This document shows positions 7,241-39,529 of a stretch of DNA of 64,000 nt, one piece after another. The stretch lies in the NCBI GenBank assembly GCA_944326605.1, contig CALVEM010000011.1, positions 1-64,000 on the forward strand, in the 5' to 3' direction. The position numbers were made by a program, and so were the translations under genes. The DNA comes from Candidatus Gastranaerophilales bacterium. GTDB lineage: Bacteria > Cyanobacteriota > Vampirovibrionia > Gastranaerophilales > Gastranaerophilaceae. The notes under the pieces were generated by a model. The model made no database searches. It was given only the letters and a program-made list of their open reading frames with translations, and was not told the origin of the DNA. Each line of letters begins with the position of its first letter. Position 1 is the stretch's first letter.

Positions 7241-8617
7241 ATGGGAACAAATTACGGATTTATATCACCATTCACTATGGACAGTTTTCGCTGGCCTGTA
7301 ACAAGTCCATACGTACCGTTTGTTAAACCGGATGCCGCATTTCCGACATTGCCTGTATGGACAAGTGATTTTCAGGCCGGTAATCTGAACAACGCTCCTG
7401 CAACAGATTATTATAAAATGGGAAAGGATTGGATGGCTGATATGAATGCCTCTACAGCTCTCTCATCATCAGCTCAAGGATTATCAGCACTTGAGGGTGA
7501 AATAACTAAGACAATGGAATCTGATGCTCTTAGTGAAGAACAAAAACAAAGATTACAGGAAATTTTAGATAAAATAGAAACATTAAAAGAACAAGTAAAA
7601 AACGCAGCTGACAAATCGGCTGATGAAAAAAATGCACTAGTCCAGGAGATTGCTCAGCTTCAGGAAGAAGCTGCTAATATAGCAAAACAAATTTCAGAAG
7701 AAATTCAACAAAATGCATCTAACGAAGCAGGAGGTGCAGAAAATAATAATGGTTCTGACGCTTCAGCAACAACTGTACCCGAAAACGTTGATGCACCTGT
7801 AGCACAAGAGTTAACAAAAGAACAGGAAAATGAAGCTCTTGAAATTTGTCAATCTATTTATCAGGGCGCAATCGGTGTAACCGGTACCAACTATGATTAT
7901 ATAACTGACGGTTACAACGGAATGAAAGGTACAAATGCAATTACAAAAGATAATGTAACTGCGGTACTGAATAAATGGCAGGAACAGTTTGCTAAAGGTT
8001 CCGGAGATGACAACGTAATTGAAACATTATTTGATGAAGAAATGTTCTGGAACCCGAGTCTTAAAGAAAGGGGTGCAAACGGCAAAATTTCTGATCCTGA
8101 GCATAACGTTGATATCATCTGGAATATTTTAAAATGTCTTGAAGAACGTGCAAAAGAACTAGGCGTATATAACAGTCTGGTAGGGCAGTTCTCTATTGCA
8201 TATGATGAACTGGATGACTTTAATATTGATCAATCTGCAGTAGAAGATGCTATAATGACAATCAACCAAACAGTTACAGTTGCTGAAAATCAGAAAAAGA
8301 CAGAAAAAGCTGAAGAAAAAGCAAAAGCAGACAAGGAAAAAGCTGCGAAAGACGAAGAATTAAAAGCAGAAGAAGAAAAACAAAAAGTTGAAACCGAAGC
8401 TAAAGATACATTTTTAGGTGATATGCGTGAAATCTGGGGTGATGATAAACTTGAGATTTCCGATAAAGTTAAATATAAAGACGGCAGATTCGTAATCAGA
8501 ATTGAAGGGATTGAATATTCCGGAAAAGATTTTAACGAATTATGTAAAAACGTCAGTGACGCAGGCCATGATCCACAGCTGTTTCTAATAAAGAAACATC
8601 TTGATAGAGCTGCATAG
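7241..8617 (+). CDS. Large coiled-coil hypothetical protein
   Basis: This 458-residue protein opens with an aromatic and proline-rich segment (YGFISPFTMDSFRWPVTSP) and has no signal peptide. It then has a coiled coil (about 85-160), a low-complexity Asn/Ala/Gly stretch (about 160-185), a folded middle domain, a highly charged Lys/Glu/Ala helix (about 345-390), and a compact C-terminal domain (VIRIEGIEYSGKDFNELCKN). An AAGGGG ribosome-binding site supports the start and a terminator follows. I do not recognise it. Its style resembles the 1558-residue protein further on. Confidence 0.55.
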   Translation: MGTNYGFISPFTMDSFRWPVTSPYVPFVKPDAAFPTLPVWTSDFQAGNLNNAPATDYYKMGKDWMADMNASTALSSSAQGLSALEGEITKTMESDALSEEQKQRLQEILDKIETLKEQVKNAADKSADEKNALVQEIAQLQEEAANIAKQISEEIQQNASNEAGGAENNNGSDASATTVPENVDAPVAQELTKEQENEALEICQSIYQGAIGVTGTNYDYITDGYNGMKGTNAITKDNVTAVLNKWQEQFAKGSGDDNVIETLFDEEMFWNPSLKERGANGKISDPEHNVDIIWNILKCLEERAKELGVYNSLVGQFSIAYDELDDFNIDQSAVEDAIMTINQTVTVAENQKKTEKAEEKAKADKEKAAKDEELKAEEEKQKVETEAKDTFLGDMREIWGDDKLEISDKVKYKDGRFVIRIEGIEYSGKDFNELCKNVSDAGHDPQLFLIKKHLDRAA

Positions 8618-27274: not shown

Positions 27275-27360
27275 TCGTTTAGAATTATTGATACAAAACC
27301 AACACAATGCTCGGAAGTGGTGTTCCAATCGGGAGCATTCAGAGTTATGGTGTTTGTACC

Positions 27361-29358
27361 ATGAATGAAGAATATATAAATATAAAGGATATCGCACAGG
27401 CTAAAGGGTTGAAAAGCACCCGTTCAATCAGAATGGAAATCAATAAGCCCGAAAGCAGATATATTTCAAGAGAGGTTAAAGTCAATGGCGGCACATCTTA
27501 TGAAATATTGTTTTCAAGTTTAGAGCCGGAATTACAACAAAAACTCAGAGAGTGCGAAACTAAATCAACAGCACTTGTTCCTTTGAATTATCAACCGCCG
27601 GTTATAACGGATAAAGCAAGATTGACTGCTAACCATAGAATAAATATAGTTAAAGCAGCTCTTGAACATCGAAAAAAATACCCGACTCAAAATCAAGCAG
27701 ACCATGAATTTTTAGAGTTATACAACACAGGATTATTTTTACCAAAAGCCTACGAGTTTATGGGAAGTATTTCAATAGGAACTTTAAGGCGATACATTCA
27801 AGCATATAAAAAGACAGGAAATGCCGAGAGCTTGCTTCCTCAATATCAAATAACAAAACAGGGAGAATACAATTCTATTTTAGATCCGAATATGAAAAAG
27901 GTTTTATTAACCTTATTACTTCATCAAAACAGATTCGGATTCAACACAGCAATTCGATTAACCAAACAGATATTAATTAAACAAGGCTACGAAGAAGATA
28001 AACTTCCAAGCAGTATTACTTTTAAACGATTTGCCGAACATTTTAGGGATAATAATTATGCCGAATGGACTCTAAAACGAGAGGGGATCAAAGCATATCA
28101 CGATAAGGTTGAGCCGTATATTGAACGAGATATTTCTAAAATTGAAGTTGGTGATGTAATAATCGCAGACGGACACGTTCTTAACTTCCAAGTAATAAAT
28201 CCGTTCACTGGTAAGCCAACGAGAGCAACACTCGTTGGCTTTTTAGATTGGAAATCAACCGCACTTGTCGGGTATGAAATTATGATGACAGAGAATACAC
28301 AATGTATTGCATCAGCTTTAAGAAATTCAATATTGAATTTAGGTTTGATTCCGAAAGTGGTTTATCAAGATAACGGAAAGGCTTTTAAATCTAAATACTT
28401 CCAACATTCAGATTTTGAGGAGGGGGAATTCAACGGTGTGTATGCCAATTTAGGTATTCACTCCGTTTTTGCTAAACCTTACAATGCGAGAGCGAAAGTA
28501 ATTGAGAGATTTTTCTTAGAATTTCAAGAAGAGTTTGAAAAGTTAATGCCAAGCTACATTGGAACTTCAATTGAAAACCGCCCGGCTTGGATGAACAGGA
28601 ATGAAAAATTACATCTTCAAATTCATCAAAGCCAAACGGGTGGAAAAATTCCAACGGTGCAAGAAGCAATTAAATATATTAATTGTTGGTTAGAATTTCA
28701 CAATCAAAAGCCTTGTCCTAACGATCGTTCAAGAAGTATTCAAGAGGTATTAAATTCTGTTCAAAGGCAGGATATAAACAAATCCGCTCTTGATTATTTG
28801 ATGATGAAAACTGAAGGCAGAACAATTAATAAACATGGAATTACCTTTTTAAATATGCATTACAGAAGCGAAGCCATACTTGGTTTAAGGGATAAGATTT
28901 ACATTCGATACAGTCTCTTTGACCTTTCAAAAGTATATGTTTATTCAGCAAAAGGCGAATTTTTGTGTGTTGCAAATAGAGTTCAGCAAGTCCACCCGAT
29001 GGCGAGAATTCTTGGAACGGCAAAGGATATGGAAGAATACAATCAACAATACAAAAAACAACAACAAATAAAAAGCCGGCTTGTGAAAAAAGTTAAACAG
29101 ACATTTAAAACAGAAGAAATCCCTTTATTAGAAATCGAGCCTGAGCCGGTTTTGGGAATTGAAGAAAAAGAACAACAAAAACCTAAAAAAGAACGAAAGA
29201 AAACACCTCGTGAACAGCAGATGAACAGACCGATTTTTAATTCAGATGCCGAAAAATATGAATGGTTAATAACTTATGGATGCACAAATCAAGAGGACAG
29301 AAAATTCCTTGCAAAATTTATACAAAGCGAACAGTACGACTTATTATATGGAGACTAA
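27361..29358 (+). CDS. MuA-like DDE transposase (first module)
   Basis: From ATG 27361 this is a 665-residue transposase; an upstream ATG at 27307 would add 18 residues. An N-terminal winged HTH (NEEYINIKDIAQAKGLKS) precedes a second DNA-binding region. The RNase H-like core has Asp in EVGDVIIADGHVL, Asp in KVVYQDNGKAFKS and Glu in AKVIERFFLEF. A mu-type C-terminal beta-barrel and a basic tail (KKERKKTPREQ) follow. It would bind the terminal repeats and carry out strand transfer. The ATPase gene begins at its 3' end. It shares little obvious sequence with the second transposase at 31254. Confidence 0.9.
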   Translation: MNEEYINIKDIAQAKGLKSTRSIRMEINKPESRYISREVKVNGGTSYEILFSSLEPELQQKLRECETKSTALVPLNYQPPVITDKARLTANHRINIVKAALEHRKKYPTQNQADHEFLELYNTGLFLPKAYEFMGSISIGTLRRYIQAYKKTGNAESLLPQYQITKQGEYNSILDPNMKKVLLTLLLHQNRFGFNTAIRLTKQILIKQGYEEDKLPSSITFKRFAEHFRDNNYAEWTLKREGIKAYHDKVEPYIERDISKIEVGDVIIADGHVLNFQVINPFTGKPTRATLVGFLDWKSTALVGYEIMMTENTQCIASALRNSILNLGLIPKVVYQDNGKAFKSKYFQHSDFEEGEFNGVYANLGIHSVFAKPYNARAKVIERFFLEFQEEFEKLMPSYIGTSIENRPAWMNRNEKLHLQIHQSQTGGKIPTVQEAIKYINCWLEFHNQKPCPNDRSRSIQEVLNSVQRQDINKSALDYLMMKTEGRTINKHGITFLNMHYRSEAILGLRDKIYIRYSLFDLSKVYVYSAKGEFLCVANRVQQVHPMARILGTAKDMEEYNQQYKKQQQIKSRLVKKVKQTFKTEEIPLLEIEPEPVLGIEEKEQQKPKKERKKTPREQQMNRPIFNSDAEKYEWLITYGCTNQEDRKFLAKFIQSEQYDLLYGD

Positions 29359-29362
29359 AACA

Positions 29363-30079
29363 ATGAAAAAAACATTTATTAAAACAAAAAACGTCAAACG
29401 GTTTATTACGTTGATGGATGAACTTCAAAAGCTGCCGTTCAACATTCCAAAACTTGCACTTGTTTATGGCGACCATGGACTCGGCAAATCTCAAGCAATC
29501 CAATGGTGGGCAGATAAAAACGATTCAGTTTACGTTAGGGCAACACAGGGAATGACAAGCAAATGGCTTTTATCAGAAATAGCAGAGGAGCTTGGCGAAG
29601 ACCCGTTTTGGCACACCCAAGAAACATTTGGTTTGATTGAAAACCATTTAAGGCAAAACCCTAAAGTAATTATTGTTGATGAAGTTGATTACTTAATAGA
29701 AAAACATACGGTTGAAACATTAAGAGATTTGCACGACAGGACAGGTTGCCCGATTGTTTTAGTTGGAATGGGAGTGGCAGATAAAAAACTCGCAAGATAT
29801 CCACACCTGTGCGACAGGATTTACAAGACATTAAAATTTGAGCAATTTAACGAGGACGATATTTCAGACATCTTAAGTCAATTAACGGAATTGAGTTTTA
29901 CAGAAGATGCAATTCATTATCTTGCAACTCGCACAAACCAGTTCAGACAGTTGGTTAAATTGATTAACAGAATTGAAAAATTATCTCAGACAAATGAGAT
30001 TAACGAATTAGACGAATACACTTTGAAAGGATTATTGAATGAAAGAACGAATATTAAGGCTTTGCAAAAGGTTGGATAA
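29363..30079 (+). CDS. MuB/TnsC-like AAA ATPase (first module)
   Basis: This 238-residue ATPase starts at ATG 29363, nine bases after a GGAG that lies in the last codons of the transposase. Walker A is YGDHGLGKSQ and Walker B is VIIVDEVDYL. The family binds target DNA as a filament and activates the transposase, and often gives target immunity. The C-terminal helical domain (LATRTNQFRQLVKLINRIEK) is typical of MuB/TnsC proteins. It overlaps the next gene by 41 nt. Confidence 0.88.
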   Translation: MKKTFIKTKNVKRFITLMDELQKLPFNIPKLALVYGDHGLGKSQAIQWWADKNDSVYVRATQGMTSKWLLSEIAEELGEDPFWHTQETFGLIENHLRQNPKVIIVDEVDYLIEKHTVETLRDLHDRTGCPIVLVGMGVADKKLARYPHLCDRIYKTLKFEQFNEDDISDILSQLTELSFTEDAIHYLATRTNQFRQLVKLINRIEKLSQTNEINELDEYTLKGLLNERTNIKALQKVG

Positions 30080-31050: not shown

Positions 31051-31260
31051 ATGACAAACTGTGATTTTTGCTACAAGAAAATTTTATTAAAATTTATTAT
31101 GTCTGTCTACAATCTTAAAGCGACAGATATTGCAAAAGAAATTCATGTTTCTGACAGTTTAGTTAGAAAACACATTGATGGCAGTAGAAATTGTAAACTA
31201 GTGGATTTTTATATAATCCATGTTTGTTTTGGTATTGATGTTGGAGTTCCTGAATGCTGA
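31051..31260 (+). CDS. Small HTH protein preceding the phage transposase
   Basis: This 69-residue protein contains a likely helix-turn-helix (LKATDIAKEIHVSDSLVRKHID). Its position directly before the transposase matches that of Ner/Cro-like early regulators in Mu-like phages. A GAGAGG sequence lies upstream of the ATG. Its stop overlaps the transposase start by 7 nt. A role as negative regulator of early transcription is inferred from position. No divergent CI-type repressor gene is seen next to it. Confidence 0.6.
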   Translation: MTNCDFCYKKILLKFIMSVYNLKATDIAKEIHVSDSLVRKHIDGSRNCKLVDFYIIHVCFGIDVGVPEC

Positions 31261-33224
31261 ATACTACGCAAGAAAAATTAAATATTCCTGCGTGGATTTC
31301 TGTTGAAGAAACGTGTCAGCTTTTGAATTTGAGTTCAAAAACAATTAAAGAACATTGTAGATTAGGCAAACTGGCTTTTAAAGTAGAAAAACAAGGGAAA
31401 AAACTTAGTTATTTTATTTATTCTGCATCACTTCCTGAATTTGCAAAAAATAAATTTTCTATCAAAACGGACAATCAAGAACTATATTCCCATGCACCAA
31501 ATTGGGCAAAAATTCAAGCAGAAAAATATTTGCCAATTTTGAAAGCCTCTGCCGGAATTAAAGGTGTGGCTCTGGTTGCATTCATTGAAAATTGGAATAA
31601 AACCCATAAAAATTTACAGACAAGTTATGCATCAATAATAAAAATGCGTAGAAGATTTTTTCAAGAAGGACTTAAAGGTTTGCTTGCTCGTTATGGCAAA
31701 AACTCTCAAAAATCAACTGTCGAAGATTTATACTTTGAATATTTTAAAAATCTATATTTAGTTGAAGGAGCACCGTCTGTTCGTTCTTGTTGGGATTTAA
31801 CTCTTGGGTATGCCATTAAAACAAATGGGGTTGATAAAACAACTTTCCCAAGCAGCCGTTCTTTTATAAGAAGATTAGAACGTGAAATTCCAAAACAAAG
31901 TATTTATTTGGCGAGATACGGGGAATCCGCTTGGAATAGGAAGTATGGAAACTACATCGAGAGAGATTATTCAAACGTGGTCTGTGGCAAAGTTTGGGTT
32001 TCAGACCACGCACAAATCGACGTTGCTTGTCTGAGTCCAGACGGCGATGTCGTTTTTCCTTGGGTTACTGCTTGGAGAGATTACAAATCCGGCAAGTGGC
32101 TCGGTTGGCTTTTGCAATGCGGCAATCCAAATTCAGACCATATCTTTCAAACTTTTTATTATGCGGCAGATGTTTACGGATTGCCGGAAGATGTAATTAT
32201 TGATAACGGTAAAGACTACCGTTGTAAAGATTTTGGCGGAGGCAGACCTAATAAAATTAGGATTGAAACGAATCAAGCAAAAACTACTCCAATGCTTGAT
32301 GAATTAAATGTCAACGTGCATTTTGCTCTGCCATATAATGCACAAACAAAACCTATCGAACGAGATTTTCTTAAAATTAAGGAATTGCTTTCTAAGCATT
32401 GTATTGGCTACAGAGGCGGAAATGTTGTTGAACGCCCTGAAAAACTTGCTCGTGAAATCAAAGCTGGCAAGATTATGCCTTTTGATAAATTCAAAGTAGT
32501 ATTCGATGATTTTGTGATTAATGTTCTAAACAAACGACCATCACAGGGTAAAAACCTACAGGGGTTATCGCCTAATGAATTGTTTAATCAAGAATTTACT
32601 GAAAAAATTACAACATCTCGTGATGCTTTGAAATTGTTCTGTATGAGAACTTCTAAAACTTATACAATCGGCAGAAACGGAATTAAAGACAACTCTTTAG
32701 GCATTACTTACTGGGCAGATTGGATGATTTCTCAGACTGGATTAAAAGTTTATCTTCGTCGGGATGTTCAAAATTACAAAGAGGCTTGGGCATTTAGAGC
32801 CGATAATGACGAGTTTGTAGGTAAAATTACAGCCGTCAAAGCAGTTGCGGCACTTCACGCTGAAACCGTTTCTAAGGAAGAATTCAAAGATGCTATGGCT
32901 ATTAAAAAACGCAATCTGAAGGTGGCTAAATCATATATAAAACAAACCTTTGAAATTCCTATTGAAGAACAATGCGAGAACTATAAAGCCGCTTATGCAA
33001 GTGTTGAAAAGCAGGCAAAACCTAAAGTTACAAAGATTGCAAATACTAATATGGATAAGGCTATTCAAAAAAATAAAAAAATGGAAGCCTTTGGAAAGTA
33101 CGATTTATCACAATTTATAGATGAAAGCAGTATTCAAGATGAGCCTCTGTATCTTTTTGAAACAGACAAAATTCTTGATGAAGAATCAAACAAAAAGTTA
33201 AAGGATGTTGCAAATGGATATTAG
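31254..33224 (+). CDS. MuA-like DDE transposase (second module, prophage)
   Basis: This 656-residue transposase begins with a winged HTH (PAWISVEETCQLLNLSSKTI), matching the MuA enhancer/end-binding N-terminus. The core has Asp in VWVSDHAQIDV, Asp in VIIDNGKDYRC and Glu in TKPIERDFLKI. A C-terminal domain with AWAFRADNDEFVG follows, then a lysine-rich tail that in Mu contacts the B protein. It would integrate and replicate the phage by transposition. It overlaps the HTH gene before it and the ATPase after it. Confidence 0.92.
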   Translation: MLNTTQEKLNIPAWISVEETCQLLNLSSKTIKEHCRLGKLAFKVEKQGKKLSYFIYSASLPEFAKNKFSIKTDNQELYSHAPNWAKIQAEKYLPILKASAGIKGVALVAFIENWNKTHKNLQTSYASIIKMRRRFFQEGLKGLLARYGKNSQKSTVEDLYFEYFKNLYLVEGAPSVRSCWDLTLGYAIKTNGVDKTTFPSSRSFIRRLEREIPKQSIYLARYGESAWNRKYGNYIERDYSNVVCGKVWVSDHAQIDVACLSPDGDVVFPWVTAWRDYKSGKWLGWLLQCGNPNSDHIFQTFYYAADVYGLPEDVIIDNGKDYRCKDFGGGRPNKIRIETNQAKTTPMLDELNVNVHFALPYNAQTKPIERDFLKIKELLSKHCIGYRGGNVVERPEKLAREIKAGKIMPFDKFKVVFDDFVINVLNKRPSQGKNLQGLSPNELFNQEFTEKITTSRDALKLFCMRTSKTYTIGRNGIKDNSLGITYWADWMISQTGLKVYLRRDVQNYKEAWAFRADNDEFVGKITAVKAVAALHAETVSKEEFKDAMAIKKRNLKVAKSYIKQTFEIPIEEQCENYKAAYASVEKQAKPKVTKIANTNMDKAIQKNKKMEAFGKYDLSQFIDESSIQDEPLYLFETDKILDEESNKKLKDVANGY

Positions 33225-34104
33225 GTTTAATTTAAAAGATTTGATGGAATTTAAAAATATCAGTATCGGATATGTTTCAGCAGCAACAGGTATTGCTAAA
33301 TCTACCATCAGTATGTGGCTTAATGACAATTACAAAGGGGATAACGGCAAAATTGCCGATAAAATTAATAATTTTATCCAACGTGAAAAAGAACGAATTA
33401 ATAATGATTTGCCTTTTGTTGAAATAAGCAATACTAAATATGTCTTTGAAATTGCTAGACTCTGTCATGTACAAGGCAGAATAGGGGTTTGCATTGGAGA
33501 AGCAGGACTAGGTAAAACATTCTCTGTTAAAAAATATGCTAAACAGTACATGGATGCAATCCTTATCGAAAGCGACTCCGGCTATACCGAAAAATCATTA
33601 TTAAAAGAAATCCATAGACGTCTTGCTCTTTCAGGTAAAGGCAGTGTATATGATTTAATGGGCGAAGTTGTTAATAAATTAAACCAATCAGGCAGACTTC
33701 TAATTATTGATGAAGCAGAGAATTTACCTTACAAAGCTTTAGAAATTACTCGCAGAATTCACGATAAAACTGGAATCGGAGTTTTGTTGGTTGGTAGAAA
33801 CATTTTACTGCAAAACTTAACGGGTAAAAATTATCAGTATGACCAATTATATTCAAGAGTCAAATTTCCAAAGGTACTTAGCAAACTTACGGTTCAAGAT
33901 GTTGTAAAAATTTTAGAATCAATAGGTCAAAATTCAGATTTGGCTGAAACATATTTATATTTTTCGAATGGAAACACTCGAAAATTGGAACATTTAATTT
34001 CCCACAGCATAAGCGTTGCCAAACGTAATGGTAAAGCTGCGGTCGATTATGCTGTAATCAGGAAAACTTCTGAATTATTGATGGCGAGGGAAAATGAGTT
34101 ATGA
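33214..34104 (+). CDS. MuB-like ATPase with N-terminal HTH (second module)
   Basis: This protein of about 296 residues has an N-terminal HTH (NISIGYVSAATGIAKSTISM) like Mu B, then an AAA ATPase core with Walker A GEAGLGKTFS and Walker B LLIIDEAENL, and a sensor-type NGNTRKLE segment near the C-terminus. It should bind target DNA and stimulate the transposase. I chose ATG 33214 (AAGGA eight bases before it) rather than 33205. The next gene starts within its stop codon (ATGA). Confidence 0.9.
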   Translation: MDIRFNLKDLMEFKNISIGYVSAATGIAKSTISMWLNDNYKGDNGKIADKINNFIQREKERINNDLPFVEISNTKYVFEIARLCHVQGRIGVCIGEAGLGKTFSVKKYAKQYMDAILIESDSGYTEKSLLKEIHRRLALSGKGSVYDLMGEVVNKLNQSGRLLIIDEAENLPYKALEITRRIHDKTGIGVLLVGRNILLQNLTGKNYQYDQLYSRVKFPKVLSKLTVQDVVKILESIGQNSDLAETYLYFSNGNTRKLEHLISHSISVAKRNGKAAVDYAVIRKTSELLMARENEL

Positions 34105-34268
34105 GAAATGCCGATAAGTTTTTGAAATTCCGACCCGAAACCTTATTACATATTTTTATAATTTCTCTTGCCATCTTTATTTTGGGAGTTCAAGTTGGAA
34201 TCAAACATGGCAGAGATTTGCAACTTGAAGACATAAGGATTGAATATGGCTACGACTTCTCAAATTAG
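34101..34268 (+). CDS. Small single-pass membrane protein
   Basis: This 55-residue reading frame overlaps the ATPase stop by 4 nt and the GemA gene by 23 nt. It has one strong transmembrane segment (LLHIFIISLAIFILGVQVG) followed by a short charged tail. Tight packing on both sides supports its being real. The function is unknown; early phage membrane peptides often interfere with host processes, but nothing here shows that. Confidence 0.55.
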   Translation: MRNADKFLKFRPETLLHIFIISLAIFILGVQVGIKHGRDLQLEDIRIEYGYDFSN

Positions 34269-34701
34269 AAAAATACACACATTAAAAAATATTATTGGCT
34301 TAGATGACGATTTGTATCGTGAAATGCTGATGTCTTTTGATGTTCAGAGTTCTAAAAATCTAACCTACACAGAAGCAATTATCTTCACAGAAATTTTAGA
34401 AGAAAAAGCAGTTGCTCTTAAGCGTTGGGAAAAACAGCCGAAAAAATACGAAAACTTGCACCGCAACGAGGATATGGCAAGCGATGCCCAACTTCGAATG
34501 ATAGAGGGAATGTGGCGAGAGGTTTGTTACTACGATAATGACCGTTTTGCAAAAAAATCCCTCAGAAAATTTTTAAAATCCAAGTTTAAAGTAGATGACG
34601 TTATGTTCCTAACTAAAACCAAAGCCTCAAAGGTTATTCATGCATTGCAGGCTATAAAAAAGAATTTAAAAAATAAAAAAAGTGCGGCCACACTTAATTA
34701 G
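34246..34701 (+). CDS. GemA/gp16-like protein (DUF1018)
   Basis: This 151-residue protein matches the Mu gp16/GemA family layout: N-terminal ATTSQIRKIHTLKNIIGLDD, DLYREMLMSF, then LTYTEAIIF, and a C-terminal half starting ASDAQLRMIEGMWREV. In Mu, GemA influences host gene expression and DNA supercoiling. ATG 34246 is preferred over the TTG two codons earlier. The gene sits between transposition and Mor genes, the expected place. Confidence 0.85.
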   Translation: MATTSQIRKIHTLKNIIGLDDDLYREMLMSFDVQSSKNLTYTEAIIFTEILEEKAVALKRWEKQPKKYENLHRNEDMASDAQLRMIEGMWREVCYYDNDRFAKKSLRKFLKSKFKVDDVMFLTKTKASKVIHALQAIKKNLKNKKSAATLN

Positions 34702-34727: not shown

Positions 34728-35063
34728 ATGGATCAAACAGTTGAAAAAATGGCAGACGAAAAAGCAAACATGATGGGCAATCAGTTCTTTGGCAAAGTTT
34801 CCCATGACGACCCAAAAGAATGCGTTGCAATGAGTGTAGTGGGAGTAATAAAAAATCAAGTTATTGTGCTTGAAGAAGAATTAAACGATGCCAAATTAAG
34901 GTATGCCGATGTTGCTCTTGAAGAAGAGAATTGGAGTGCTAAATACGAACGAAAACAGGCTTGCAAGATTCTTGAAGGTCAAATTGCCATTCTTAATAAA
35001 GTAGAACAAGACATTGAATCTATGCTTACCCCGATGTCTAAACCTATGGCAATGGCGGTTTAA
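34728..35063 (+). CDS. Small early phage protein upstream of hammerhead 1
   Basis: This 111-residue acidic, helical protein has no domain I recognise. The C-terminal half (VLEEELNDAKLRYADVALEE) looks coiled-coil. AAGGAG precedes the ATG. Its TAA stop is one base before the first hammerhead ribozyme, so its mRNA would end in the ribozyme stem III hairpin after cleavage. Confidence 0.6.
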   Translation: MDQTVEKMADEKANMMGNQFFGKVSHDDPKECVAMSVVGVIKNQVIVLEEELNDAKLRYADVALEEENWSAKYERKQACKILEGQIAILNKVEQDIESMLTPMSKPMAMAV

Positions 35064-35064
35064 A

Positions 35065-35125
35065 GGTCGAAACGGTCGGTTTATATGGCTGACCGTCTTA
35101 GAGTGATGCTCTAACTGATGAGACC
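35065..35125 (+). ncRNA. Type II hammerhead ribozyme 1
   Basis: All core elements are present in order: stem II strand GGTC, core GAAA, stem III CGGTCGG/CTGACCG, cleavage triplet GTC (predicted cut after C35097), stem I TTAGAG-TGATG-CTCTAA, core CTGATGA, and stem II strand GACC. Stem II is the open helix, which defines type II. It begins one base after the stop of the gene at 34728 and ends 24 bases before the next start codon, leaving room for that gene's ribosome-binding site (AAAGGG). Confidence 0.93.
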
Positions 35126-35149
35126 AAATAATACGAAAGGGAAACAACA

Positions 35150-35434
35150 ATGGAAACTCAAGAAAAAGCTACACAGGTGCTAGATAGGCAAATTGCCGAA
35201 GTACAAACAAAGATTAATCAGGCTAAAATCAATATCGCCGATGTATTTATCAAAACGACAAGTATTGATATTCAAGATATTCGATCCCCCAAAGATGCCT
35301 TGCCATTTATAGAAGATATGGAAAAGATGCCGCATTACTTAAATACAGTAAAAGCACAGGAAAAAGTCCTCGCAGCATTAACAAAATCTCGTGCAGAGAT
35401 TGAAACAGCTTTAACTGGTGTGGTTGTAAAATAA
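35150..35434 (+). CDS. Small early phage protein bracketed by two hammerheads
   Basis: This 94-residue protein is helical with Lys/Gln-rich heptads (QIAEVQTKINQAKINIA) and no recognised domain. AAAGGGAAAC precedes the ATG. Hammerheads lie 24 bp upstream and 2 bp downstream, so self-cleavage at 35097 and 35473 would release a 376-nt RNA carrying only this gene and its ribosome-binding site. The layout is similar to that of the preceding gene, suggesting repeated gene-plus-ribozyme cassettes. Confidence 0.65.
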   Translation: METQEKATQVLDRQIAEVQTKINQAKINIADVFIKTTSIDIQDIRSPKDALPFIEDMEKMPHYLNTVKAQEKVLAALTKSRAEIETALTGVVVK

Positions 35435-35436
35435 CA

Positions 35437-35501
35437 GGTCGAAACAGCCGGCTAACAGTGCAAGCTGGCTGTCTTAGAGTGAGGCTCTAACTGACGAGAC
35501 C
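35437..35501 (+). ncRNA. Type II hammerhead ribozyme 2
   Basis: It has the same arrangement as copy 1: GGTC, GAAA, stem III CAGCCGGCT/AGCTGGCTG, GTC (predicted cut after C35473), stem I TTAGAG-TGAGG-CTCTAA, core CTGACGA, then GACC. Stem III differs from copy 1 on both strands while pairing is kept, so selection is on structure. It begins two bases after the preceding stop codon and ends 26 bases before the Mor-like start codon. Confidence 0.93.
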
Positions 35502-35527: not shown

Positions 35528-35845
35528 ATGGAATTTAAACCATGGATGGAAAATATATCAATCGAGGATTTACCGAACGATGATTTGAAGTTCGTGGCTC
35601 AGTGTGCCGGAATTAAGGTCGCTCTTACTCTTATTTTCTGCTTGCCGGGATTGATTGTAAATATTCCAAAACACGCTCTTAAAAAGTTAAAAGAACGCTA
35701 TATTTTAAAAGAATATGACGGCACAAAAATGACATTAAACAGGCTCGTAATTGAATGCGAATTATCTCAAAGACACGTGGAAGCCGTAATTAGAAAAGAA
35801 TTAAACAAAAAGAAGAAACCTCCTGCTGAACCCCTTAAAAAATAA
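35528..35845 (+). CDS. Mor-family transcription activator
   Basis: This 105-residue protein resembles Mu Mor and C: an N-terminal dimerisation part, a central segment ending in a strand-forming PGLIVNIPKHALKKLKERY, and a C-terminal HTH (TLNRLVIECELSQRHVEAVI). Mor activates middle or late phage transcription together with host RNA polymerase. ATG 35528 has AGGAG five bases upstream; an ATG four codons earlier overlaps that site. It is the last gene of the early operon and is followed by a terminator. Confidence 0.85.
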   Translation: MEFKPWMENISIEDLPNDDLKFVAQCAGIKVALTLIFCLPGLIVNIPKHALKKLKERYILKEYDGTKMTLNRLVIECELSQRHVEAVIRKELNKKKKPPAEPLKK

Positions 35846-35858
35846 TCATCACTTCTTT

Positions 35859-35895
35859 GCCTTAATGTTTGTTGATTTGCATTGAGGCTTTTTTT
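35859..35895 (+). terminator. Terminator of the early (Mor) operon
   Basis: A 9-bp stem (GCCTTAATG at 35859-35867 with CATTGAGGC at 35880-35888, one wobble) is followed by seven T residues. It ends the plus-strand early operon before the convergent minus-strand block. Confidence 0.88.
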
Positions 35896-38459: not shown

Positions 38460-38867
38460 TTATTTTTTTCTAATATTTCTCTTTTCATTAAGTGCTAAAT
38501 AATGAATTTGAGTTCTCATATCCGATAAAAGCCTTGCTTCTCTGACACGTTCAACTTGCCTATCGAATTCATCAGATATTTTAGGGAAGTTTTTATCGTT
38601 TGAATCTGTATTAGAAAATGTTTCTCTAATCTTATTAAAGGATTCTAATTCCGCATCTAAATTTCTGCGAGCCTTGTTCATTTGTGCTTGAGTAGATTTA
38701 TATACCTTGTTTAGCTCATCATCTGTCATTTGATGATATTTATCCATAAATTCTGTGCGAAATGCATTATTATCATTTTCATATTTATTTTTTAATTCCG
38801 AGGAATTCGCTCTTGCACTTCCACCGCCACCACCGCTTCTGCCTCCGCCTGAGCCACGTCCGCCCAT
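38460..38867 (-). CDS. Gly-rich-leader phage protein 1
   Basis: This 135-residue protein begins MGGRGSGGGRSGGGG and continues with a Lys/Glu/Asn-rich helical domain (DDELNKVYKSTQAQMNKA). The same leader starts the next gene upstream, while the rest differs. N-terminal MGGRGS-type leaders occur on various phage proteins and may act as a virion-packaging or localisation tag; that is inference. The two genes are separated by 2 bp. Confidence 0.65.
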   Translation of the reverse strand: MGGRGSGGGRSGGGGGSARANSSELKNKYENDNNAFRTEFMDKYHQMTDDELNKVYKSTQAQMNKARRNLDAELESFNKIRETFSNTDSNDKNFPKISDEFDRQVERVREARLLSDMRTQIHYLALNEKRNIRKK

Positions 38868-38869
38868 AG

Positions 38870-39529
38870 TTAGTCTCCTTTCATTTTTGGAATGTCTATG
38901 TCAATCCAATTTTTTTCACTTGCTCCCCAAGTGATTTTTCTGCCGGATTGTTTAGCCATCTTTTTAATTACTTTATCAATCTGTTTTCCGCTTGATTTGT
39001 GTAAAATCTGCCAATCGTAGTCTTCTTCATATCGAGCTTCGGGTGGATTTTTCCATTTACCTAAATATCTAATAGATAAAGTCGTACGATTACCAAAATC
39101 ATTAAGTTGAATATCGCTATTGTCGACCATATTGCTTTTATCAACCTGTCTTTTTAATTGATATTTCAATTCACTTACAGTGCTATCCATAGACATTTTA
39201 GGTTTTGTTTTTCTTGGATCTTTTTCTTTCTTTTCGGGTTTAATTCCATTCTTCTTATTTTCCGCACGTTTAGCACGAGCTTTTGCAAGTGCATCGAGCC
39301 GTTTTTGTTTTAAATCTGCTGCTTTTTTAGCATCCAGTTCTTTTATTCTTTCTTGAATATCGTTCATTGCTTTAACTCGTTGTTCAACAGATAAATTGGA
39401 ATTGCCTGAAATGCTGTTATATAAATTAATAAGCTCGTTTTTATCTGTTATTCCCTCGCCGGTTGGTATTTTTTTAGCGGCACTTCCACCACCACCTGAT
39501 TTGCCTCCGCCTGAGCCACGTCCGCCCAT
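38870..39529 (-). CDS. Gly-rich-leader phage protein 2
   Basis: This 219-residue protein shares the MGGRGSGGG(K/R)SGGGG leader with its neighbour. A short helical region, a very basic coiled stretch (about 75-125, LKQKRLDALAKARAKRAE), and a C-terminal alpha/beta domain (about 130-219) with TTLSIRYLGKW and WGASEKNWIDIDIP follow. The basic stretch could bind nucleic acid. No family is recognised. A GGAG site lies upstream and the gap to the DUF4417 gene is 2 bp. Confidence 0.65.
   Translation of the reverse strand: MGGRGSGGGKSGGGGSAAKKIPTGEGITDKNELINLYNSISGNSNLSVEQRVKAMNDIQERIKELDAKKAADLKQKRLDALAKARAKRAENKKNGIKPEKKEKDPRKTKPKMSMDSTVSELKYQLKRQVDKSNMVDNSDIQLNDFGNRTTLSIRYLGKWKNPPEARYEEDYDWQILHKSSGKQIDKVIKKMAKQSGRKITWGASEKNWIDIDIPKMKGD

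Follow-up and report, generated by a model that had tools for sequence, protein, structure and literature searches.

Type II hammerhead ribozymes occur in bacteria, including in clusters that flank single prophage genes (Perreault et al. 2011, PMC3088659). Tandem sets of this kind, placed around prophage genes, underwent cleavage in vitro, one set also did so when cloned in E. coli, and the processing of long phage transcripts has already been proposed for such gene-flanking hammerheads (PMC3088659). In the haloviruses HF1 and HF2, the hammerhead termed HHphage lies upstream of the helicase operon, and a transcript 5′ end has been mapped at most 3 nt from its cleavage site (PMC3088659).

We analysed a 64-kb stretch of DNA (the window) labelled Candidatus Gastranaerophilales, in which an earlier note had described two type II hammerheads bracketing one phage gene. 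The predicted ribozymes share their topology, their core, a GUC-type cleavage site and the flanking of single prophage genes with the set of Perreault et al. They differ from it in that one joint upstream of mor is fixed throughout the order, in that loop I and the tail form no clear pseudoknot, in that the clade is unrecognised by the Rfam model, and in that cassette turnover at the ribozymes is documented. With HHphage they have in common a position just 5′ of an early phage gene, whereas HHphage is a core variant found as a single copy in an archaeal virus, with neither mor nor a cassette. Hammerheads flanking prophage genes have thus been known since 2011, and what is added here is the link with mor, a distinct clade, natural losses and cassette exchange. 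A literature search, with most subscription journals outside its reach and priority therefore not established, found no paper that connects hammerheads to mor, to Mu-like prophages or to Gastranaerophilales.

The hammerheads lie in a Mu-like early operon in which MuA, MuB, GemA and mor follow one another in this order on one strand, as identified by Pfam matches and by synteny in relatives (Table 1). A mechanical scan of the operon for promoters and terminators gave results at chance level; the hairpin behind mor, with its 12-nt loop, is beyond the limits of that scan. The prophage has two successive pairs of Mu-type transposase and AAA ATPase (27307-30079 and 31254-34104), and doubled pairs of this kind were also seen in three other loci (L012, L013 and L015). 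At positions 38460-39529 of the window, two neighbouring minus-strand ORFs have a common glycine-rich start (MGGRGSGGG...), resembling a duplicated leader.

Table 1. Early operon of the Mu-like prophage and its predicted ribozymes, in window coordinates.
Feature	Position	Strand	Remarks
MuA-like transposase	31254..33224	+	Pfam DDE_2, Mu-transpos_C
MuB-like AAA ATPase	33205..34104	+	Pfam AAA_22
GemA gene	34240..34701	+	Pfam PF06252, E=9.5e-17
orf111, gene 5′ of copy a	34728..35063	+	Stop codon 1 nt before copy a
Predicted type II hammerhead, copy a	35065..35125	+	Between orf111 and orf94; predicted cleavage after 35097
376-nt RNA predicted from double cleavage	35098..35473	+	Stem I hairpin at start, stem III hairpin at end
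orf94, cassette gene	35150..35434	+	Fast-evolving; predicted helical hairpin; no known family
Predicted type II hammerhead, copy b	35437..35501	+	Between orf94 and mor; cleavage predicted after 35473; this is the copy retained 5′ of mor
mor-like activator of middle transcription, final gene of the operon	35528..35845	+	Pfam Mor E=0.02 (below cut-off); family alignment and order-wide matches
Terminator-like hairpin and T run 3′ of mor	35859..35895	+	GCCTTAATG...CATTGAGGC TTTTTTT, read from the sequence

Both copies are built in the order stem II strand, GAAA, stem III hairpin, GTC, stem I hairpin, CTGANGA, stem II strand. With the predicted cleavage site marked by ^, copy a reads GGTC GAAA CGGTCGG-TTTATATGG-CTGACCG TC^TTAGAG-TGATG-CTCTAA CTGATGA GACC, and copy b GGTC GAAA CAGCCGGC-TAACAGTGCAA-GCTGGCTG TC^TTAGAG-TGAGG-CTCTAA CTGACGA GACC. 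The hammerhead core (CUGANGA ... GAAA with an NUH triplet) is present in both as CTGATGA or CTGACGA, GAAA and GTC. According to folding and covariation, three helices surround this core in type II topology, stems I and III being closed by loops and stem II open. The hammerhead is both the minimum-energy and the centroid structure of each copy (z = -3.9 for a, -3.0 for b), and the clade's own covariance model scores copy a at 77.9 bits and copy b at 91.7 bits. Re-reading the copies, we found, as the earlier note had, that stem III differs on both strands with its pairing retained, and that the motifs begin 1-2 bases after a stop codon, the gaps being 1 nt (copy a) and 2 nt (copy b).

Chance offers a poor account of such a pair. 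A generic type II scan of the window returned exactly two matches, copies a and b. The reversed window gave zero, and 150 dinucleotide shuffles averaged 0.02 matches per 64 kb, none of them with equally long stems. In the 2.05 Mb genome, a specific, stricter pattern has two occurrences, both of them here, and its reversal has none. Core, fold, shuffle controls and comparative evidence all support the identification made in the earlier note: on sequence grounds, the early operon in the window carries, on its coding strand, two complete hammerheads of type II, for which self-cleavage is predicted.

Relatives were gathered with a covariance model built from nine copies. In 65 distinct sequences, standard pairs fill 99.2% of the paired cells, a figure somewhat favoured by the fitting of the alignment to the structure. 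Double-sided changes were found at 16 of the 20 pairs, across all three helices, amounting to 206 doubly changed cells. No shuffled or slid-register alignment came near the observed pairing, and the slid controls fell to 25-43% paired. The variants of stem I include TTAGAG/CTCTAA, TTAACG/CGTTAA, TTGGAG/CTCCAA and TATGTG/CACATA, among others, and those of stem II, besides the window's, AGTC/GACT and GAGC/GCTC. The ribozyme body is more conserved than the adjacent orf94. Loop III (for example window positions 35453-35463) is kept as roughly GGCUAACNNUGCAAGCY in many copies while stem III changes, a conservation that hammerhead catalysis does not require.

An Infernal search with the Rfam hammerhead II model, proposed in the earlier note, leaves the window copies unreported. 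With the Rfam hammerhead models, nothing in the window reached the gathering threshold and no type II match appeared even at E <= 10; RF02276 (Hammerhead_II, gathering threshold 37 bits) gave no score at or above its threshold in the window, in the genome that the window belongs to or in eight related loci. As a positive control, the same model detects two canonical type II hammerheads in the Mu-like phage MT835795.1 (L185). These resemble the window's in belonging to a Mu-like phage and in forming a pair, 654 nt apart from start to start and upstream of MuA. They differ in their longer stem I, their GGTCT/AGACC loop-tail complementarity and their place in the operon, and reach only 24 bits with the clade's model. 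The hammerheads described here are a distinct clade overlooked by standard Rfam annotation. MT835795.1, a human-faecal phage whose record is without annotation, also carries a RAGATH-28 RNA besides its Hammerhead_II pair (L185:241-968 and 8186-8277). A different phage contig, IMGVR_UViG_3300020112_000594, strings together four type II hammerheads that are separated by small ORFs (L003:1522-3491).

In the published bacterial type II consensus, loop I forms a pseudoknot with the tail 3′ of stem II in the majority of sequences, not in all (PMC3088659). Where it occurs in other type II hammerheads, this pseudoknot speeds up the ribozyme. In the clade described here, runs of at least four loop I-tail pairs occur in 42% of copies versus 25% of shuffles, and no consistent complementarity is seen in the window copies. 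Outside the core, an A stands directly 5′ of stem II without exception (52/52), another directly 3′ of it nearly always (46/52), and loop I is mostly URAKG. These flanking As and the loop I pattern may point to a tertiary contact in place of the usual loop-tail pseudoknot.

Across the order Gastranaerophilales, 75 ribozyme matches were found in 51 of the 383 genomes searched. Most of them (57) directly adjoin a mor match, at most 145 nt upstream of it, and 16 are a second copy one gene further up, 381-409 nt upstream of mor; the remaining two lie near a contig end and elsewhere, respectively. The order's one match not beside mor (L136, G103:C3:131708-131769) is a type II hammerhead with a small ORF on either side. 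Most genome records that contain this ribozyme pattern bear the label Candidatus Gastranaerophilales, and a phylum sample gave zero covariance-model matches outside the order. Three IMG/VR contigs that have the operon also have the ribozyme; the Mu-like phages BalMu-1, phiRTG5 and FP_Mushu gave no match with the clade's model and no Rfam match. The 58 distinct copies first collected have the layout orf111-ribozyme-mor or orf111-ribozyme-orf94-ribozyme-mor, with three not fully resolved (L016, where a different small gene stands 5′ of the ribozyme, and two with one neighbour cut off or uncalled). Gaps between stop codon and ribozyme range from -1 to 18 nt in 57 measured units and are at most 11 nt in all but one.

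Comparison of 106 distinct mor loci, 60 with GemA or orf111 just upstream and 43 in other surroundings, ties the ribozyme to the operon. It is intact in 54 of the 60 and absent from all 43, a contrast confounded by phage lineage and for which the Fisher test (p = 7e-23) overstates independence because the loci are related. Three of the six exceptions are due to an assembly gap (L138), a short stem II (L137) and a splitting insertion (L139), and three loci (L044, L045 and L174) have no ribozyme. In L139 (G196:C5:12500-18500), the ~100-nt insertion falls in stem I of the mor ribozyme and may be a small mobile element, or else stem I may be enlarged here. At the ribozyme's place upstream of mor, L044 (G154) has a plain hairpin, AGTGCAGGGAAAATTCCCTGCACT, which may stand in for it functionally; in L045 and L174 the place is empty. 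Since these three operonic loci do without it, the ribozyme is not indispensable. The ribozyme is also retained on both sides of the deepest split of the GemA tree. The mor-adjacent ribozyme is kept across the order and present only where mor ends a MuA-MuB-GemA operon, and the constant unit is this copy, not the bracketed gene.

Two hammerheads facing one direction and flanking a prophage gene, the arrangement that the earlier note had put foremost, are a fact of the window and an optional state elsewhere, found in 18 of 52 related loci; these double loci are the gene-plus-ribozyme cassettes that it had suggested looking for in related prophages. Close relatives differ by presence or absence of the cassette between nearly unchanged flanks, which are 93-99% identical on both sides for L019 (single) versus L013, L021, L025 and L026 (double), 98-99% for L042 versus L043, and 84-90% for L073 versus L072 and L046. 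The single ribozyme connects the upstream flank of copy a with the downstream flank of copy b, and that of L073 is a chimera, with a copy a-like stem III and a copy b-like stem I. Between L032 and L050 the flanks are 98-99% identical and the orf94 stretches 60%, from which it follows that the gene was swapped between its ribozymes. On the GemA tree, the single or double state changes up to 10 times, with at least 5 changes forced by strong branches. The second ribozyme and orf94 are thus an optional cassette that comes and goes or is replaced by a diverged allele, with breakpoints at the ribozymes. No ORF94 relatives were found among viral contigs, and PHROGs and fold searches with orf94 returned nothing significant, only a generic helical hairpin. 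A paralogy of orf94 and orf111, through duplication of gene plus ribozyme, is no more than a weak lead, because coiled coils mimic homology; the profile comparison gave 73% probability with E 3e-5, and the models of both are helical hairpins.

We consider it probable that the type II hammerheads are cis-acting punctuation of the Mu-like early transcript, giving mor a stability and dosage of its own, and that the orf94 unit is an exchangeable cassette; we infer that cleavage takes place in the cell and has an effect on mor. As the MuA-MuB-GemA-orf111-(orf94)-mor operon is transcribed, every ribozyme would cut itself. A cut behind orf111 or orf94 would leave the stem III hairpin and a cyclic phosphate at the 3′ end of the upstream message, and the downstream message would begin with a 5′-OH right at the stem I hairpin, ~50 nt before the start codon. 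In the window, the two cuts would produce three messages, namely the transposition genes through orf111, the orf94 piece and mor, the last as a separate RNA of ~420 nt from stem I hairpin to terminator, with a hairpin at each internal end. Recomputation placed the predicted cleavage sites after 35097 and 35473 and gave an excised piece of 376 nt, the same values as in the earlier note. Mor, the middle-transcription activator, would thereby gain stability and dosage independent of the transposition genes, and it is at this same joint that the exchangeable cassette of second ribozyme and orf94 is optionally inserted. Transcript processing and the uncoupling of mor from the transposition genes, both put forward in the earlier note, draw comparative support from the restriction of the ribozyme to loci where mor ends the operon. 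A ribozyme immediately 5′ of mor in nearly all the related viruses examined suggests that the virus cuts its own early message into separate gene messages.

The closest precedent for the opposite outcome is the glmS ribozyme, whose self-cleavage 5′ of a bacterial gene leaves a 5′-OH mRNA, as is predicted here. In B. subtilis, RNase J1 degrades the 5′-OH glmS product (PMC3997798); if an exposed 5′-OH likewise triggered decay of the mor message, cleavage would limit or delay Mor, and limiting an activator at the end of the early operon would make sense. We find this rather unlikely. The glmS ribozyme is metabolite-dependent and has another fold, and its product decays through RNase J1, whereas the host genome (99.9% complete) has RNase E/G (453 bits) and RNase Y (659 bits) and no RNase J above the cut-off (one 19.9-bit match against a cut-off of 400). 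Moreover, a hairpin, as at the new 5′ end, tends to protect. Decay from a 5′-OH end is known to proceed through RNase J, and a 5′ hairpin impedes RppH (PMC3997798); in a host without a clear RNase J and without RtcB, a 5′-OH combined with a 5′ hairpin is therefore expected to protect. Under the punctuation model, the cut would be expected to stabilise the mor message, not to destroy it, a guess from the host nucleases made because decay from the glmS 5′-OH needs RNase J1 and 5′ hairpins protect. Cleavage could in addition be gated by translation: a ribosome terminating at the upstream stop, 0-11 nt before stem II, would cover GGUC-GAAA and block folding, so that cleavage would report translation of orf111 or orf94. 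A ribosome footprint spans such stop-to-ribozyme distances, and the gaps observed fall inside it; yet the tight packing of phage genes yields the same spacing without any function. Such gating, unlikely though worth keeping in mind, is compatible with the punctuation model as a way of regulating it.

The pairs with and without cassette (L019/L013, L042/L043 and L073/L072, with flanks 84-99% identical), the orf94 swap between L032 and L050, the chimeric L073 ribozyme and the 5-10 state changes on the GemA tree would also fit ribozymes kept mainly as shared homology for the exchange of accessory cassettes, RNA cleavage being incidental. However, homology alone needs neither a conserved catalytic core nor compensatory stem changes, and the ribozyme is intact at cassette-free single-copy loci, also in divergent lineages where the cassette never occurs, which makes this very unlikely. 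Hardly to be expected is a circular or spliced RNA, in which the orf94 piece would be closed by RtcB or by a reverse hammerhead reaction, or the outer pieces rejoined. The excised piece does hold half of each ribozyme, the 3′ half from copy a and the 5′ half from copy b; in 15 of the 17 double loci its stem II strands match (GACC/GGTC), those of L046 and L072 (GACT/GGTC) pairing by wobble, and in the window the predicted fold brings the two ends of the piece together (P about 0.91). But end closure differs widely among relatives (0.01 to 0.99) and does not consistently exceed that of shuffled interiors, and circular and spliced products were sought with other tandem hammerheads and none found (Perreault et al., PMC3088659). 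Selected end closure of the excised RNA was accordingly rejected as a general feature. The RtcB-type circularisation that the earlier note had thought conceivable is not supported and is unlikely because the host lacks RtcB: PF01139 had no match in the 99.9% complete genome, and control genomes were positive. Just as far-fetched is a self-closing message: once both cuts had been made, the two ribozyme halves on the excised piece would rebuild a hammerhead through their shared stem II and religate the 376-nt orf94 message into a circle without a protein ligase, single-ribozyme phages just releasing mor.

What hammerheads do in bacterial and phage genomes has been an open question since 2011, in part owing to the variety of genes beside them. 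Here, one clade is tied to one joint 5′ of mor throughout this order of gut bacteria, with natural ribozyme-less loci and pairs with and without the cassette as ready comparisons. The ribozymes can be seams for the exchange of phage gene cassettes, and the system makes it testable whether hammerhead cleavage sets the dose or the timing of Mor.
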